A stretch of DNA of 34,460 bases. Source: Rhodospirillales bacterium. Its GTDB lineage: Bacteria > Pseudomonadota > Alphaproteobacteria > Azospirillales > Azospirillaceae. The DNA lies in assembly GCA_947457845.1 (NCBI GenBank), contig CANGXM010000007.1:1-34460 (forward strand), in the 5' to 3' direction. Within the stretch, counting starts at the first letter, position 1. Each line of letters opens with the position of its first letter. Below the pieces are notes generated by a model. The model was not told where the DNA came from, searched no databases, and was given only the letters and a program-made list of their open reading frames with translations. This document shows, piece by piece, positions 18,087-26,417 of the stretch. The position numbers and the translations under genes were made by a program.

Positions 18087-18506
18087 GTCTCTCGCTCCCT
18101 GGCTTATCGTCACGGCACGGTCCCCCCTGCGGCGAACCGTCACCGTGCTTCTATGGCGATGTCCTAGTGTCGAACGGCATCGCGGGCAAATCGAATCGTC
18201 GCGCGACGGCGCTCCGCCCATGACGCATCCGGGAACCCGACCGGCCCCGACGACCTGATCCCGGTCGGCGCGGGGATCCTGACCGAATGCCGCGCGCGCG
18301 GTCCTCGGCCGGACGCCGGGCGCCACGCCCCGAATGCCGGTCCCGAATGCCGGTCCCGGACGACGCCCCGCCCGAATGACCGCGCCCGCCATTGCAACCC
18401 GCCCGACATGATCGGACACTCGACGTCATGGATCGCGGTCGGCCGGCATCGCCGGCCATCACGGGGCGGACGGATCGGGGGACGGTCGGTTGATCGGCGA
18501 CATGCG

Positions 18507-19769
18507 ATGACGGCACCCCTCGACGCCCCGCCGGTCGGCCCGGCCGCGCCCCGGGGCCTGTGCACCGACTGCGGCATCTCGCGGACGGACGATCCCAAGG
18601 CGTGCGGGCGCGCCTGCCAGTTCATCCGGCCCGATTATCCGGGGATGGAAGCACGGGTCCACGGCCGGGCGCGCGACCCCTCGCGCCCCGACGAGATGCA
18701 TTTCGGCCCGTTCCGGCGGATGGTCCGCGCCTCGCTGGCACCGCCGCGCCCCGGGGCGCAGTGGACCGGGATCACCACCCGGCTGGGCGAACGCCTGCTG
18801 GAGGCGGGGCTGGTCGACGCGGTGCTGACCATGGCGCCCGACCCGGAGGACCGGTGGCGCCCCGTGCCGGTGCTGGTCACGCGGGCCGAGGGGATGGCCC
18901 GGGTGCGCGGGATGCGGATGGGCTACGCCCCGCTGCTGGCCCTGCTGAAGCCGGCGCGCGAGCGCGGGTACCGGCGCCTCGCGGTGATCGGCATCCCGTG
19001 CCAGGTCTATGCGCTCCGCGCGCTGGAGGCGGAGCTGGGGTTCGAGCGGCTCTACGTCATCGGGACGCCGTGTTCGGACAACACCACGACCGAGAACTTC
19101 CACCGCTTCCTGGCGCTCCTTTCGCCCGCGCCGGAAACCATCTCCTACCTGGAGTTCCGCGCCGACTACCATGTGGAGATCCGGTTCGACGACGGGCGGG
19201 TGCGGACGGTGCCGTTCCTGCGGCTGCCCATCTCGAAGCTCCCGCCCGACTTCTTCCCCCTGACCTGCCGCACCTGCGTCGACTACACCAACGTCCTGGC
19301 CGACATCACGGTCGGCTACATGGGCGGCGAGGGGGAGCAGTGGCTCCTGGTGCGCAACGCGCGGGGGGAGGAGCTGCTGGACCTGCTGGACGGCGAGGTG
19401 CGCCTGTCCACGCCCGGCAGCGCCGGCAAGCGGGCCGGCCCGGTCAAGGGCTTCCTCGCCAACGTGGAGCGCGCGGCGGGCGGGCTGCCGTTGCGGGGCA
19501 TGCCGAACTGGCTCCGGCCGATCGTCGGGTGGCTGATGCCGCGGATCGGGCCACGCGGGCTGGAATTCGCCCGCGCCCGGGTGGAGATGAAGGCGGTGGA
19601 GACCGTGCTGCACCTGCGCCGCCAGTTCCCGCGCCGCATGAAGTCCATGGTTCCGCCGCACGTCTGGGCGCTGGTGGCCCCCTACGGCCTGAAGCCGGAC
19701 GACCGGGACGGAACCGGTGCGGCGGCGGCGGGGCCGCCCCCCGCGCCGCGCCCACGGCAGCCGGAGTGA
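18507..19769 (+). CDS. FrhB-superfamily (coenzyme F420 hydrogenase/dehydrogenase beta subunit-like) Fe-S flavoprotein, BciB/HCAR-like
   Basis: 420 aa from ATG 18507; N-terminal Cys cluster CTDCGISRTDDPKACGRACQF; GAQWTGITTRLGERLLEAGLVDAVLTM.PDPEDRWRPVPVLVTR; IGIPCQVYALRALE; LYVIGTPCSDNTTTENFHRFL; CRTCVDYTNVLADITVGYMG; WLLVRNARGEELLDLL. Confidence 0.85.
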   Translation: MTAPLDAPPVGPAAPRGLCTDCGISRTDDPKACGRACQFIRPDYPGMEARVHGRARDPSRPDEMHFGPFRRMVRASLAPPRPGAQWTGITTRLGERLLEAGLVDAVLTMAPDPEDRWRPVPVLVTRAEGMARVRGMRMGYAPLLALLKPARERGYRRLAVIGIPCQVYALRALEAELGFERLYVIGTPCSDNTTTENFHRFLALLSPAPETISYLEFRADYHVEIRFDDGRVRTVPFLRLPISKLPPDFFPLTCRTCVDYTNVLADITVGYMGGEGEQWLLVRNARGEELLDLLDGEVRLSTPGSAGKRAGPVKGFLANVERAAGGLPLRGMPNWLRPIVGWLMPRIGPRGLEFARARVEMKAVETVLHLRRQFPRRMKSMVPPHVWALVAPYGLKPDDRDGTGAAAAGPPPAPRPRQPE

Positions 19770-19895: not shown

Positions 19896-21017
19896 TCATC
19901 CGCCGGACCAGCGATCCGCCAGCAGGCGGACCAGCCCCTCGACGTCGAGGTCCCGGCGCAGGAAGGCCTCCACGGTCGCGCCCGCCGTCGCCTGCCACGG
20001 GATGAAGCCGGCGAACCGCGGGCGTGTCCACGCCGCCTCCATCGTATGCCGAATCGCCGCGTGTGCGCCGCCGAAGAGCCGGTCGGCGTCGGCTCCCGAC
20101 CAGGCCTCCGCGCGGCCCGGCTGGCCGTGATGACGCATGACGAGGTCGAGTTGCGCGTCGGCCGACGCCACCATGCGCACGACCGCCGAGGCCGCAGCGA
20201 CGTCGCGGCACCCGCGCGCGATGCCGAGGCCCGTCCCCCCCAGCACCGTGCCGCGCAGGCGGCCGTCGGGCCCCGGGAAGCCGGCGAAGCGGAGGGGCCG
20301 GCGCTGGTCGGTCTCGGCATAGGTCAGGTAGGCGTATGCGGCCGGGCAATAGACGACGTCGTCGTCGCGGACCATCGCGTCGTGCAGGTCGATGGCGTTC
20401 ATCGCGCGCCCGTCCGGGCGGGACAGGTCCGCGACCGCGCGCAGGAGGCGCGCCGCATGGCGCAGCACGGCCCGGTCGAAGGGCGTGGCCAGCGGGTCGG
20501 CGGCGAGCGGCCGGTCGAGGTTGGCGCAGAGCGCCAGGAGCACGAGGACGCCGTGCGGTGCAAGGGTCGCGAGCCCGAGCCACCGGCCCTCGCGACGGAG
20601 CCGTTCCCCGAGGCGGACGACGGCGTCCCAGTCGGTGGGCAGGCCATCGCCCTGGATGAGGTCGGGGCGGTACACGGCGCATTGGGTCGCCCCGTCCACC
20701 GGAAGCGCCCAGAGGTGGCCGGCATAGCGATAGCTGTCCAGCGACCGCCCGACGAAATCCTCGTCGCGGAGGTCCGCCAGGACCGTGTCGAGCGGGTGCA
20801 TGAGGCGACAGGCCGCCACCGATCCGCAGAACGGGTGGTCGAAGACGATCAGGTCGTACCGGTCCGCCAGCGCGTCGCCCAGCCCGTGCTCGAACCCGGC
20901 GAGGCTCTGCACCTCCCACTCGACCTCGATCGAGAGCCGCTCCCGCGCGGCGCGCGCGATCGCGTCGGTCGGCCCCGTCGCCCGGCGGTGGCCCCAACTC
21001 AGGCCCCGCAGCGTCAC
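19896..21017 (-). CDS. Extracellular-solute-binding-protein-like protein lacking a recognisable signal peptide
   Basis: 373 aa from GTG at 21017 (MTLRGLSWGHRRATGPTDAIARAARERLSIEVEWEVQSLAGFEHGLGDALADRYDLIVFDHPF); SBP-like GHLWALPVDGATQCAVYRPDLI, GLGIARGCRDVAAASAVVRMVAS. No hydrophobic N-terminal segment seen. Confidence 0.75.
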   Translation of the reverse strand: MTLRGLSWGHRRATGPTDAIARAARERLSIEVEWEVQSLAGFEHGLGDALADRYDLIVFDHPFCGSVAACRLMHPLDTVLADLRDEDFVGRSLDSYRYAGHLWALPVDGATQCAVYRPDLIQGDGLPTDWDAVVRLGERLRREGRWLGLATLAPHGVLVLLALCANLDRPLAADPLATPFDRAVLRHAARLLRAVADLSRPDGRAMNAIDLHDAMVRDDDVVYCPAAYAYLTYAETDQRRPLRFAGFPGPDGRLRGTVLGGTGLGIARGCRDVAAASAVVRMVASADAQLDLVMRHHGQPGRAEAWSGADADRLFGGAHAAIRHTMEAAWTRPRFAGFIPWQATAGATVEAFLRRDLDVEGLVRLLADRWSGG

Positions 21018-22141
21018 CCTTCGGCCAGCATCGCCCGCTCCTCCTGTCCCAGTTCGATCCCGAGCCCCGGCCGGTCCGGCGGCACGAGGCACCCGTCGTC
21101 CAGCCGCCAGCCGCAGGCCCACAGGCGGTCCCGCAGGCCGTCGTGCATCAGGTGGAACTCCAGCCCGTCGCAGGACCCCGTCCCGGCGCCCAGATGGGCG
21201 GCCGCGGCGGTCGCGACGGCGGATCCGGCGCAGTGCAGGCTGATCTTGCGGTGGAACGCCGCCGCCAGCGCGGACAGGTCCCGTCCGCCGGTGATGCCGC
21301 CGGCGATCGCGAGGTCGAACTGGAGGTGGCGGACCGCCCCGGCCCGGAGCATGCGGAGCATGAGCGACCGGTCGTCGGACAGCTCGGGCCCGGCCAGCGG
21401 AAGGCCGGTCGCGGCGGCGATCGCCACCCATCCGTCGACGTCCGACGCCAGGGTCGGCGCCTCGAGGAAATGCAGGTCGTGGCGGGCCAGCCGTCGACCG
21501 AGCCGGATGGCCCCGGGAACGTCGGGGACGAACATGGCGTCCACCATCAGCGGCGCGTCGGGCCCGATCGCGGCGCGCACGGCGGCGACCCGCTCGTCGT
21601 CCGCGTCGAGGCCGGCCCCCGCCACCTTGATCTTCGCGCCGCGGACGCCCTCCCGCTGGGCCGCCGCCATCTCCTCGCCGAGGCCGCGGGGCGTCACCTC
21701 GGGACCGTACATGCCCCCGGAGGCGTAGACGGGCACCCGGTCGGCGACGCCGCCGAGGAGCCGGAAGACCGGCTGGCCACAGAGCCGTCCCAGGAGATCC
21801 CACAGCGCCATGTCGACCGCCGACCGGGCGGCCGACGCCGCCGATCCGCGCGCGGTCAGCGTGGCAAGGTCGCAGAGCCGGGCCGAGATCGCGCCCGGGC
21901 GGCGGGCGTCGCGGCCGACGAGGTGGGGCGCAACCTCGTGCCGCAGCATCGCGACCGCCACCTCGGGCGCCCCGCCGCCGTCGCAGTACATCTCGCCGAG
22001 CCCGGACGCGCCGCCCTCGGCGACGACCTCCACCAGGACATACGTCTTGCGCGACCAGGCGTGGCGGGTGTTGCGGGCGCGGCCGTCGTAGGTGCGGGTG
22101 ACGACGGCGGTCCGCAGCGCCTCGATCCGCAAGGGCCTCAC
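21014..22141 (-). CDS. Enolase-superfamily (mandelate racemase/muconate lactonizing type) enzyme, copy 1
   Basis: 375 aa from GTG at 22141 (LRIEALRTAVVTRTYDGRARNTRHAW); KIKVAG, MVDAMF, FLEAPT, AGPEL, LQFDLAIAGGI, ISLHCAGS. Confidence 0.9.
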   Translation of the reverse strand: MRPLRIEALRTAVVTRTYDGRARNTRHAWSRKTYVLVEVVAEGGASGLGEMYCDGGGAPEVAVAMLRHEVAPHLVGRDARRPGAISARLCDLATLTARGSAASAARSAVDMALWDLLGRLCGQPVFRLLGGVADRVPVYASGGMYGPEVTPRGLGEEMAAAQREGVRGAKIKVAGAGLDADDERVAAVRAAIGPDAPLMVDAMFVPDVPGAIRLGRRLARHDLHFLEAPTLASDVDGWVAIAAATGLPLAGPELSDDRSLMLRMLRAGAVRHLQFDLAIAGGITGGRDLSALAAAFHRKISLHCAGSAVATAAAAHLGAGTGSCDGLEFHLMHDGLRDRLWACGWRLDDGCLVPPDRPGLGIELGQEERAMLAEG

Positions 22142-23109
22142 TCCGCCTTGGCCCCCGACGCCCGGACGATCGGCGTCCACCGCTCGATCTCGGCCGCGAT
22201 ATGGGCGCGGAACTCGGCCGGCCCGGTCAGGGTGGGGACGACGCCCTGGGCCGCGAGCCGTTCGCGCACCGCGGGGTTCGCGAGGGCCGCGGCGAAGGCG
22301 GCGTGGATCCTGGCGACGATCGCCGCGTCGGTGCCGCGGGGGGCGAGCACGCCATACCACACGCTCGCGTCGAAGTCGGCCAGGCCGCCTTCCTTCAGCG
22401 TCGCGACGTCCGGCACGGCCGGGGCGCGGGCCGCGGTGCTCACGCCGATGCCCTTCAGCGCGCCGCTCTTCAGGTGCTGGGCCGCGGGCGGCAGGCCGAG
22501 GATGCCCATCGTCACCTGTCCGGCGATCACGTCGGTGGTCGCCGGCGCGCCACCGCGATAGGGGACGTGGACGAACGTCGCCCCGCTGGCGTTGGACAGG
22601 ATCGCGCCGGTCAGGTGCATCGGCGTTCCCACGCCCGGGGTCGCGAAGGACAGGCCGCCCGGCGTGCGCCGCGCGAGGTCGAACAGTTCCGCCAGCGTGT
22701 TCGCCGGCACCGACGGATGCACCACCACGACCCACGGGAACAGGGCGATCTGCCCCACCGGCTCGAAGTCGCGGACGGGATCGAACGGGAGCGTCTCGAA
22801 CAGGCCCTTGCTGAGCGCCAGCGGTCCGATGTCGCCGAACAGGAGCGTGTAGCCGTCGGCGGGCGCACGGGCGACCATCTCGGTCGCGAGGTTGCCGCCG
22901 GTGCCGGGCCGCGGCTCGATCACCAGCGGCTGGCCCAGGCTGCGCGAGACGTCGTCGGCCATGTTCCGCGCCATGATGTCGGCGGCGCCGCCCGGCGGTC
23001 CGGGGATCACGAGCCGGATCGGGCGGTCCGGCCACGCGTCAGCGGACGGGGCCAGGCCGAGGGCGATCAGGGTGGCGAATACGGCCGCGAGCCGTCGGGT
23101 CAGGGGCAT
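22138..23109 (-). CDS. Bug/TctC family tripartite tricarboxylate transporter substrate-binding protein
   Basis: 323 aa from ATG at 23109; signal MPLTRRLAAVFATLIALGLAPSADA; WPDRPIRLVIPGPPGGAADIMARNMADDVSRSLGQPLVIEPRPGTGGNLATEMVARAPADGYTLLFGD. Confidence 0.95.
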   Translation of the reverse strand: MPLTRRLAAVFATLIALGLAPSADAWPDRPIRLVIPGPPGGAADIMARNMADDVSRSLGQPLVIEPRPGTGGNLATEMVARAPADGYTLLFGDIGPLALSKGLFETLPFDPVRDFEPVGQIALFPWVVVVHPSVPANTLAELFDLARRTPGGLSFATPGVGTPMHLTGAILSNASGATFVHVPYRGGAPATTDVIAGQVTMGILGLPPAAQHLKSGALKGIGVSTAARAPAVPDVATLKEGGLADFDASVWYGVLAPRGTDAAIVARIHAAFAAALANPAVRERLAAQGVVPTLTGPAEFRAHIAAEIERWTPIVRASGAKAE

Positions 23110-23171
23110 GGGGGCGTCCTCCGTCGGTCTTTCGCGGCAAGCGTTGTGTCCCCCCTGGGCGCATGTCAAAT

Positions 23172-23195
23172 ATATGGAACATGGCATCTCCATAT
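23172..23195. promoter_or_regulatory. Interrupted palindrome in divergent Bug/lysR intergenic region, candidate LysR-type regulator site
   Basis: ATATGGA-N10-TCCATAT, perfect 7-bp arms, in a locally AT-rich patch between starts at 23109 (-) and 23205 (+). Confidence 0.55.
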
Positions 23196-23204
23196 GATTT
23201 CGAT

Positions 23205-24092
23205 ATGCCTCCGGATCTCCGCCTCTTCCGCTACGCCGTCGCCGTCGCCGACGAGGGCGGCTTCAGCCGGGCCGCCGCCCGGCTGGGGATCGCCCAGCCG
23301 CCGCTGTCGCAGCAGATCCGCGGGCTGGAGGCGGCGCTCGGCGTCGTGCTGTTCGAGCGGACGGCGGGCGGAGCGGTGCCCACGCCGGCCGGCATGGTGT
23401 TCCTCGATCGCGCCCGTGCGGTGCTGCGCGACGCGGGCGAAGCGGTGGATGCGGCCCGTCGGGCGGCGCGGGGCGAGGAGGGTCGCCTCGCGATCGCGAT
23501 CGCCGGCGGGGCCATGTTCTCGTTCCTGCCGGGCCTGCTGCGCGATTTCCGGCTCAGGCGACCCGGCGTCGCGATGGACCTGTCCAACCTGTCCCCGGAC
23601 GAGCAGGTGGACGCGCTGGAGGCGGGGCGGATCGACGTCGGGTTCGCCGGCCGCGCGCGGATGTCGTCCGGCGTGGTCGCGGCGCTCGCCCACGCCGAGC
23701 CGTTCGTGGCCGCCCTCCCGGCGGACCATCCGCTGTCCCGGCGGCGCGTCCTCGCGCTGCGCGATCTCGCCGACGATCCGTTCGTGATGTTCGCCCGGAC
23801 CCAGGCGAGCGGGCTCCACGCCGACGTCCTCGACCTGTGCCGTGGCGCCGGCTTCACGCCGCGGATCGTGCAGGAGATCGCGCCGATGCACGCGGTGGTC
23901 GGGCTCGTCGGCGCCGGCCTCGGCGTGGCGGTCGTCCCGCGCTCGGTCCGCGTCCTGCGCTTTTCGACCGTCGTTTACCGGCCGTTCGCGGATGCCGCCG
24001 TGCCGTCGCAGATCTTCATGCTCCACCGGTCGGGCGGCGCGTCCCCGGCGGCGGCGGCCTTCGTCGCCTTCGCCGGCGACCGGACGGCCTGA
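23205..24092 (+). CDS. LysR-family transcriptional regulator
   Basis: From ATG 23205: MPPDLRLFRYAVAVADEGGFSRAAARLGIAQPPLSQQIRGLEAALGVVLFERTAGG, winged HTH typical of LysR; ORF track starts at 23163 but the internal ATG fits the family better. Confidence 0.92.
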   Translation: MPPDLRLFRYAVAVADEGGFSRAAARLGIAQPPLSQQIRGLEAALGVVLFERTAGGAVPTPAGMVFLDRARAVLRDAGEAVDAARRAARGEEGRLAIAIAGGAMFSFLPGLLRDFRLRRPGVAMDLSNLSPDEQVDALEAGRIDVGFAGRARMSSGVVAALAHAEPFVAALPADHPLSRRRVLALRDLADDPFVMFARTQASGLHADVLDLCRGAGFTPRIVQEIAPMHAVVGLVGAGLGVAVVPRSVRVLRFSTVVYRPFADAAVPSQIFMLHRSGGASPAAAAFVAFAGDRTA

Positions 24093-25283: not shown

Positions 25284-26417
25284 GTGGAGCCGAAACCGAT
25301 GCGGATCACGGGGCTCAGGTCGCTGACGGTGACGCGGCGCTACGACGGCAGCCTCCGCAACACGCGTCACGTCTGGACGCACAAGGACGCGGTGATCGTC
25401 GTCGTCGAGGCGGAGGACGGGCGGTTCGGCCTGGGCGAGGTCTATTGCGACGCCGTCTCCTCGACCGCGCAGCACCACGCCGGCCTGCGTGACTGGGCCA
25501 CCCCCCTCGTCGTCGGTGCCGATGCGCGGGGGATCGAGGCGATCCGGCGCCGGCTGACGGAATCGGCGGTCCTCAGCGGGCGTGGCGGGGCTGCGGACGC
25601 CCTGATCGCGGGCATCGACATCGCGCTCTGGGACCTTCTGGGCAAGATCGCCGGCCTGCCGGTCTTCCGCCTCCTGGGGGGGTACGCCGACCGCGTTCCG
25701 GCCTATGCCAGCGGCGGCATGTTCGGGGCGGGCACGACGCCCGAGGGGCTGGCGGAGGAGATGCGCGCCGCCGTCGGGCGCGGGCTGCGGGGGGTGAAGG
25801 TGAAGGTGGCGGGCGGGCCGCTCGCCGACGACGTCGCCCGGGTGCGCGCGATCCGCGCCGCGCTGGGTCCCGGCGTGCCGATCATGGTCGACGCCATGTT
25901 CCTGCCGACCGTGCCCGAGGCGATCCGCCTCGGCCACGCGCTCGCCCCCTTCGAGCTGCACTTCCTGGAAGCACCGACGGCGATGGAGGACGTGGCCGGA
26001 TGGTGCCGGATCCGCGACGCCACGGGGCTGATGCTGGCGGGGCCGGAACTGCACTGGTCGGTCGACCGGATGCGCGACATGCTCGCCGCCGACGCCGTCC
26101 ACTACCTCCAGTGGGACGTCACCCTGGCCGGCGGGATCAGCCAGGGTCGCACGCTGGCGGGCCTCGCCGCCGCCTTCCACCGCACCGTCAGCCTGCACTG
26201 CTCGGGGTCGGGGATCGGGCTCGCGGCGACCGCCCACCTCGCGGCCGGGATCGCGAACTGCGACGGGATCGAGTTCCACCTGATGCACCAGGCCCTGTTC
26301 GACCGGCTGTGGCGGGCCGGATGGTCGCTGGCGGACGGCACGTTGCGGCTGCCCGAGACGCCGGGGCTCGGCCTCGACCTGACGCCCGACGAGCTGACCG
26401 CCATCGTCGACGCATGA
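25284..26417 (+). CDS. Enolase-superfamily (mandelate racemase/muconate lactonizing type) enzyme, copy 2
   Basis: 377 aa from GTG 25284 (alternative ATG 25299): MRITGLRSLTVTRRYDGSLRNTRHVW; KVKVAG, MVDAMF, FLEAPT, AGPEL, LQWDVTLAGGI, VSLHCSGSGIG. Confidence 0.92.
   Translation: MEPKPMRITGLRSLTVTRRYDGSLRNTRHVWTHKDAVIVVVEAEDGRFGLGEVYCDAVSSTAQHHAGLRDWATPLVVGADARGIEAIRRRLTESAVLSGRGGAADALIAGIDIALWDLLGKIAGLPVFRLLGGYADRVPAYASGGMFGAGTTPEGLAEEMRAAVGRGLRGVKVKVAGGPLADDVARVRAIRAALGPGVPIMVDAMFLPTVPEAIRLGHALAPFELHFLEAPTAMEDVAGWCRIRDATGLMLAGPELHWSVDRMRDMLAADAVHYLQWDVTLAGGISQGRTLAGLAAAFHRTVSLHCSGSGIGLAATAHLAAGIANCDGIEFHLMHQALFDRLWRAGWSLADGTLRLPETPGLGLDLTPDELTAIVDA

Follow-up and report, generated by a model that had tools for sequence, protein, structure and literature searches.

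A signal-less family of sugar-type solute-binding proteins encoded beside carboxylate-processing enzymes

What is the role of a protein that resembles the solute-binding protein (SBP) of a transporter but has no recognisable means of leaving the cytoplasm? The question is raised by a gene, here called cytSBP, in a 34,460-nucleotide stretch of DNA from a Rhodospirillales bacterium (contig CANGXM010000007.1); this whole stretch is termed the window below. The initial annotation, made from the letters alone, described the product as SBP-like, noted that it lacked an export signal and an adjacent permease or ATPase, and proposed that it may act in the cytoplasm as a partner of the enolase-superfamily enzyme to which it is translationally coupled.

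The gene and its operon

The cytSBP open reading frame is real and is encoded on the minus strand (Table 1); read from the GTG codon, its N-terminus is the one originally quoted. The overlap with the enolase gene was also read correctly: the enolase sequence ends ...GAA GGG TGA, that of cytSBP begins GTG ACG CTG... and the four bases GTGA are common to both. The enolase matches Pfam MR_MLE_C (5e-48) and MR_MLE_N (3e-18), its best PDB match is 4ggb (1e-37) and all of its active-site residues (KxK, D, E, E, D, H) are present. Upstream of it the operon encodes a TctC receptor, whose signal peptide is of the ordinary kind when read by eye (MPLTRRLAAVFATLIALGLAPSADA); this receptor serves as an exported comparison inside the same operon. 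As this exported protein overlaps the enolase in the identical manner, the GTGA overlap is silent on compartment and on complex formation. It is weak, unspecific evidence and we rejected it as an argument for partnership, although it had been offered as one. A LysR-family regulator gene is divergent from the operon both here and at a related Comamonadaceae locus (L020).

Table 1. Features of the cytSBP operon, with positions in the window
Feature	Position	Strand	Basis or remark
cytSBP gene, 373 aa	19896..21017	-	GTG start, without signal peptide
Codon R332	20022..20024	-	Invariant; aligns with ligand-binding hinge Arg404 of LpqY
Codons Y228, Y230, Y233	20319..20336	-	Probable cleft aromatics near the sugar-stacking tryptophans of sugar SBPs
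Codons D108-x-A110	20688..20696	-	Hinge/cleft segment, invariant
Codons D60-H61-P62	20832..20840	-	D60 aligns with trehalose-binding Asp80 of LpqY
Codons W8-x-H10-x-R12	20982..20996	-	Loop between strand 1 and helix 1, invariant in the family
Stop/start overlap GTGA, enolase to cytSBP	21014..21017	-	
Enolase-superfamily (MR/MLE) enzyme, sugar-acid dehydratase/cycloisomerase type	21014..22141	-	Pfam, PDB, active-site columns
Stop/start overlap GTGA, TctC to enolase	22138..22141	-	Identical to that of enolase to cytSBP
TctC (Bug-type) periplasmic receptor	22138..23193, probable start 23109	-	Pfam TctC 7e-64
LysR-family regulator, divergent from the TctC-enolase-cytSBP operon	23163..24092	+	

In the window no cluster-D-type permease or ATPase adjoins cytSBP, in agreement with the initial annotation. 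The ABC genes closest to cytSBP, at 12.5-18.4 kb, belong to an Opp/Dpp-type system, which we rejected as the cognate transporter because it has its own SBP_bac_5 receptor. Between this system and the cytSBP operon lies an FrhB/FdhB-type (coenzyme F420 hydrogenase beta-like) gene (18408-19769, plus strand). A second enolase-superfamily gene (25284-26417, plus strand), 56 percent identical to that of the operon, adjoins genes for a LacI regulator and for an Opp-type SBP_bac_5 protein.

Fold and ligand cleft

The SBP-like character first noted for cytSBP holds. Pfam SBP_bac_1 (PF01547) matches at 7e-7 with 29.9 bits, above the curated cut-off of 26; for one relative (L022) only SBP_bac_8 passes. 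Among proteins of solved structure, LpqY and the maltodextrin/trehalose-binding proteins come nearest in sequence. An AlphaFold (AF2) model built from 60 family members (mean pLDDT 95.7, pTM 0.93) has the complete two-lobe SBP fold with strand 1 at residues 2-8, and hence nothing is absent or hidden at the N-terminus. A Foldseek search with the model gave ligand-bound SmoF as the best PDB match (E 1e-18, TM 0.85), together with other closed sugar SBPs; open SmoF scored lower (TM 0.79). We are confident in the predicted sugar-type (cluster-D) SBP fold.

The ligand cleft was placed by sequence alignment to LpqY, with residue numbers counted by hand. In LpqY Asp80 and Arg404 both touch the buried glucose; the Arg404Ala substitution abolishes trehalose binding and the Asp80Ala protein is unstable (PMC7949145). 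In the 60 sequences, whose members have different partner genes, W8, H10, R12, D60, P62, D108, A110, Y233 and R332 never vary; H61 and Y230 are almost invariant, and position 228 is occupied by Tyr or Phe. The window protein carries the full signature (WxHxR / DHP / DxA / YxYxxY / R332) together with the signal-less start, and a paralogue linked to UxuA genes keeps the cleft residues except H61, which is Tyr. At these positions the secreted SBP1 proteins encoded in the same loci are variable. As the cleft is unchanged when the partner enzyme changes, its sequence suggests a single class of ligand or a single chemistry.

A signal-less family and its gene neighbours

A profile-guided scan of genome contigs gave at least 570 confirmed relatives, of which the best 80 were retained. 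Among these best 80 the alignment begins at query residues 1-5, and they come from at least five phyla (Pseudomonadota, Acidobacteriota, Bacteroidota, Bacillota and Actinomycetota). A relative was found in 12 of 298 other sampled Pseudomonadota genomes (about 4 percent). In the phylogenetic tree all family members group in a single clade with full support, separate from the secreted SBPs of the same loci. Annotated members are labelled 'extracellular solute-binding protein' or ABC transporter substrate-binding protein. Two members of one genus (L134 and G670:C1:480440-481540) each contain a single internal TGA, and may be pseudogenes or contain sequencing errors.

Could cytSBP be a periplasmic receptor after all, exported by a non-classical route or through a signal missed by choice of the wrong start codon? 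Its fold and family name, like the labels given to its annotated relatives, would suit a secreted receptor. However, the cytSBP start and the sequence upstream of it lack any Sec, Tat or lipoprotein signal and any signal-like hydrophobic stretch, and a recognisable signal peptide is missing from every member examined. Across 102 distinct relatives, spanning at least five phyla, the N-terminus lies at the first beta strand, nearly always at a motif like LKGxTWxHPRG. An in-frame stop lies no more than 12 codons upstream of this strand-1 motif in 18 of the 98 members examined, and therefore no signal peptide can be encoded there; one of these is from the clade of the window (L020, stop 10 codons upstream). 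With the limit set at 20 codons the count is 40 of 98, and stops at either distance would leave little or no space for a signal peptide. The RR of GHRRAT sits in the loop between strand 1 and helix 1 and is not a Tat signal because no hydrophobic stretch follows. The median of the hydropathy maximum near the start is 0.63 in the cytSBP family and 2.23 in secreted SBP4 receptors by the same computation, but this measure is crude (a small TctC set also scored low) and it is the stop codons that carry the argument. A conserved upstream start supplying a signal was looked for and not found, and we rejected a hidden start or a Tat signal on the basis of the upstream sequence and the in-frame stops of relatives. 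Judged from these sequences, the absence of a signal is a family trait rather than chance, the reading as a periplasmic receptor is largely refuted and very improbable, and a cytoplasmic location without a transport role, as originally proposed, is strongly supported.

The gene neighbourhoods agree with this conclusion. Among the 62 loci that span 19 kb or more, 26 have no match to an ABC permease or another SBP, 32 have a permease with a separate receptor, three have only a permease and one has only a receptor. Hence, in most cytSBP loci an ABC importer is either absent or accompanied by a receptor of its own.

Neighbouring genes were identified by profiles made from the annotations of plasmid relatives, which mostly have a CaiB/BaiF CoA-transferase gene alongside. 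Among the 102 distinct members (one duplicated locus being taken once) a CoA-transferase gene is directly adjacent in 73 and an enolase-superfamily gene in six, and the catalytic Asp is kept in all 74 neighbouring CoA-transferase copies. No CaiB/BaiF CoA-transferase gene adjoins cytSBP in the window, where the enolase stands instead. The type of partner is thus variable and does not define the family, yet it tracks the cytSBP tree (12 changes, versus 45.8 with shuffled labels). Other contexts are a Pedobacter locus, in which cytSBP follows rhamnosidase, GH130-like and GH2 genes, and the UxuA-linked paralogue, encoded elsewhere in the genome to which the window belongs (L124), which is preceded by two genes for UxuA-type dehydratases and one for an RraA-like protein. 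What these contexts share is cytosolic carboxylate enzymes, mostly in operons for the breakdown of sugars or sugar acids. Two loci (L025:10001-12312 and L028:10001-12312) contain two tandem cytSBP genes of different clades downstream of ECH and CoA-transferase genes.

The enolase partnership is a property of a smaller group. Window cytSBP forms one clade (SH-aLRT 100) with proteins from an Acetobacteraceae (L019, 66 percent identical), the Comamonadaceae (L020, 54 percent) and Jannaschia (L021, 52 percent). In all four loci, which belong to different genera, the enolase gene is directly upstream of cytSBP, its stop codon overlapping or almost touching the cytSBP start, and the cluster includes a TctC gene. 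The three other enolases are 50-68 percent identical to that of the window and keep KxK / D / E / E / D / H. The Jannaschia cluster also contains TctA, gluconolactonase and SDR genes, which point to sugar acids. In the sister group (L022-L024, L119, L120) the clusters contain an enolase gene to which cytSBP is not directly adjacent, and the data support a cytSBP-enolase partnership for the window clade only. The proposal of an enolase partner therefore survives for these four loci; as a CoA-transferase is the usual neighbour family-wide, we widened it to a cytosolic partner of carboxylate-processing enzymes.

Possible roles and comparison with known systems

The explanation we favour, tentatively and with rather less than even confidence, is that cytSBP is a non-transport cytosolic metabolite-binding partner of the neighbouring carboxylate-processing enzyme. 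It would bind a small polyhydroxy-acid-like metabolite that is the substrate or product of the adjoining enzyme, close over it as SBPs do, and either buffer it or hand it on in the cytosol. In the window operon an acid captured extracellularly by TctC would be dehydrated by the enolase inside the cell, where cytSBP would deal with the same metabolite or the one that follows it. In favour of such a partner the canonical SBP ligand positions D60 and R332 are kept, the model is nearer to ligand-bound than to open SmoF, and both the active site of the window enolase and the catalytic Asp of the CoA-transferases are intact. Against it, CoA-transferases and enolases elsewhere function without such a partner. 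No fusion of cytSBP with either enzyme was found among the loci examined. Gene distances of cytSBP correlate with those of the CoA-transferase (r 0.86), but Gfo/Idh (0.86) and ECH (0.84) genes of the same operons correlate equally; hence, we rejected the correlation as uninformative about a specific physical partnership.

The partners, and presumably the substrates too, differ across the family whereas the cleft does not, a pattern explained by a shared catalytic step no less well than by the passing-on of varied substrates. The family may have left transport and turned catalytic, performing a step common to the CoA-transferase, enolase and UxuA pathways, for example isomerisation, dehydration or lactone opening. 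Residues capable of acid/base chemistry (H10, R12, D60, H61, D108, Y228, Y230, Y233, R332 and R334) are nearly or fully invariant across partner classes, as would suit catalysis, and SBP-derived enzymes are documented: cyclohexadienyl dehydratase evolved from an arginine SBP, according to a paper that lists structures of MqnD, thiaminase I and porphobilinogen deaminase among its references (PMC7683729). However, D60 and R332 also bind ligand in ordinary sugar SBPs, so their conservation need not mean catalysis, and we know of no enzyme that arose within the PF01547 sugar-SBP group. From the conservation pattern we consider an SBP-fold enzyme possible though doubtful, and nearly as likely as a binding partner, which is put slightly ahead because the canonical sugar-SBP binding residues are kept. 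Appreciably less probable is a cytosolic sensor, in which ligand-bound cytSBP would signal to a regulator or transporter and so tune the operon. An IclR regulator gene directly follows cytSBP in eight Mesorhizobium-type loci, and the occurrence of SBP domains beside an HTH-like region in separate, probably cytosolic proteins makes a sensor plausible, but most members have no adjacent regulator, window cytSBP has no DNA-binding domain and it is metabolic enzymes that are the constant neighbours.

More broadly, and at a little under an even chance, a sugar-type SBP fold would have moved to the cytosol and spread over at least five phyla, and would now work in catabolic modules for carboxylates (CoA-transferase, enolase, UxuA), either as an enzyme or as a subunit indispensable for handing on the substrate, which would be the first such role in this SBP group. 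The literature searched, whose coverage excludes most subscription journals, contained no publication describing the family and nothing relevant on cytosolic SBPs with CoA-transferases or enolases. The fold was already known; what is new is a signal-less, enzyme-coupled family of five phyla. If confirmed, its role would correct a systematic misannotation (at least 570 genome contigs encode relatives), extend by one of sugar type the few known binding proteins that have been taken over for tasks other than transport, and make cytSBP a marker of uncharacterised sugar-acid routes in which CoA-transferases take part. With so constant a cleft, the question of the ligand is directly testable.

Several systems invite comparison. 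Cyclohexadienyl dehydratase, MqnA/MqnD and thiaminase I resemble cytSBP in using the SBP fold outside transport, and MqnA/MqnD are cytosolic; all stem from SBP groups other than that of cytSBP. A second signal-less SBP_bac_1 family, with the motif IAVRKFGPFE (L044:13457-14692; also L054, L059, L064, L067, L077 and L004), has an SBP_bac_1 match at 2e-25 and an SBP-like AF2 model (pLDDT 91) with strand 1 at residues 2-7. It occurs in the same CoA-transferase/Gfo-Idh/MaoC operons as cytSBP, but is a distinct clade with a different cleft. Alphaproteobacterial proteins of about 600 aa (L018, L105, L108, L111, L112 and L116) join an N-terminal HTH-like region, to which Pfam gave no name, to a C-terminal SBP_bac_1 domain. 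These are candidate cytosolic SBP-domain transcription factors and would share with cytSBP a probable cytosolic use of SBP_bac_1 (L018, L105, L111), but differ from it in their length and HTH-like region. The cluster-D sugar SBPs (SmoF, TMBP 1eu8 and LpqY) have the full two-lobe fold in common with cytSBP (TM up to 0.85), and the cleft Asp80 and hinge Arg404 of LpqY have their equivalents in D60 and R332. Unlike them, the cytSBP family lacks a signal peptide throughout and a dedicated permease or ATPase, and has instead an invariant cleft signature and operon partners that are cytosolic enzymes.
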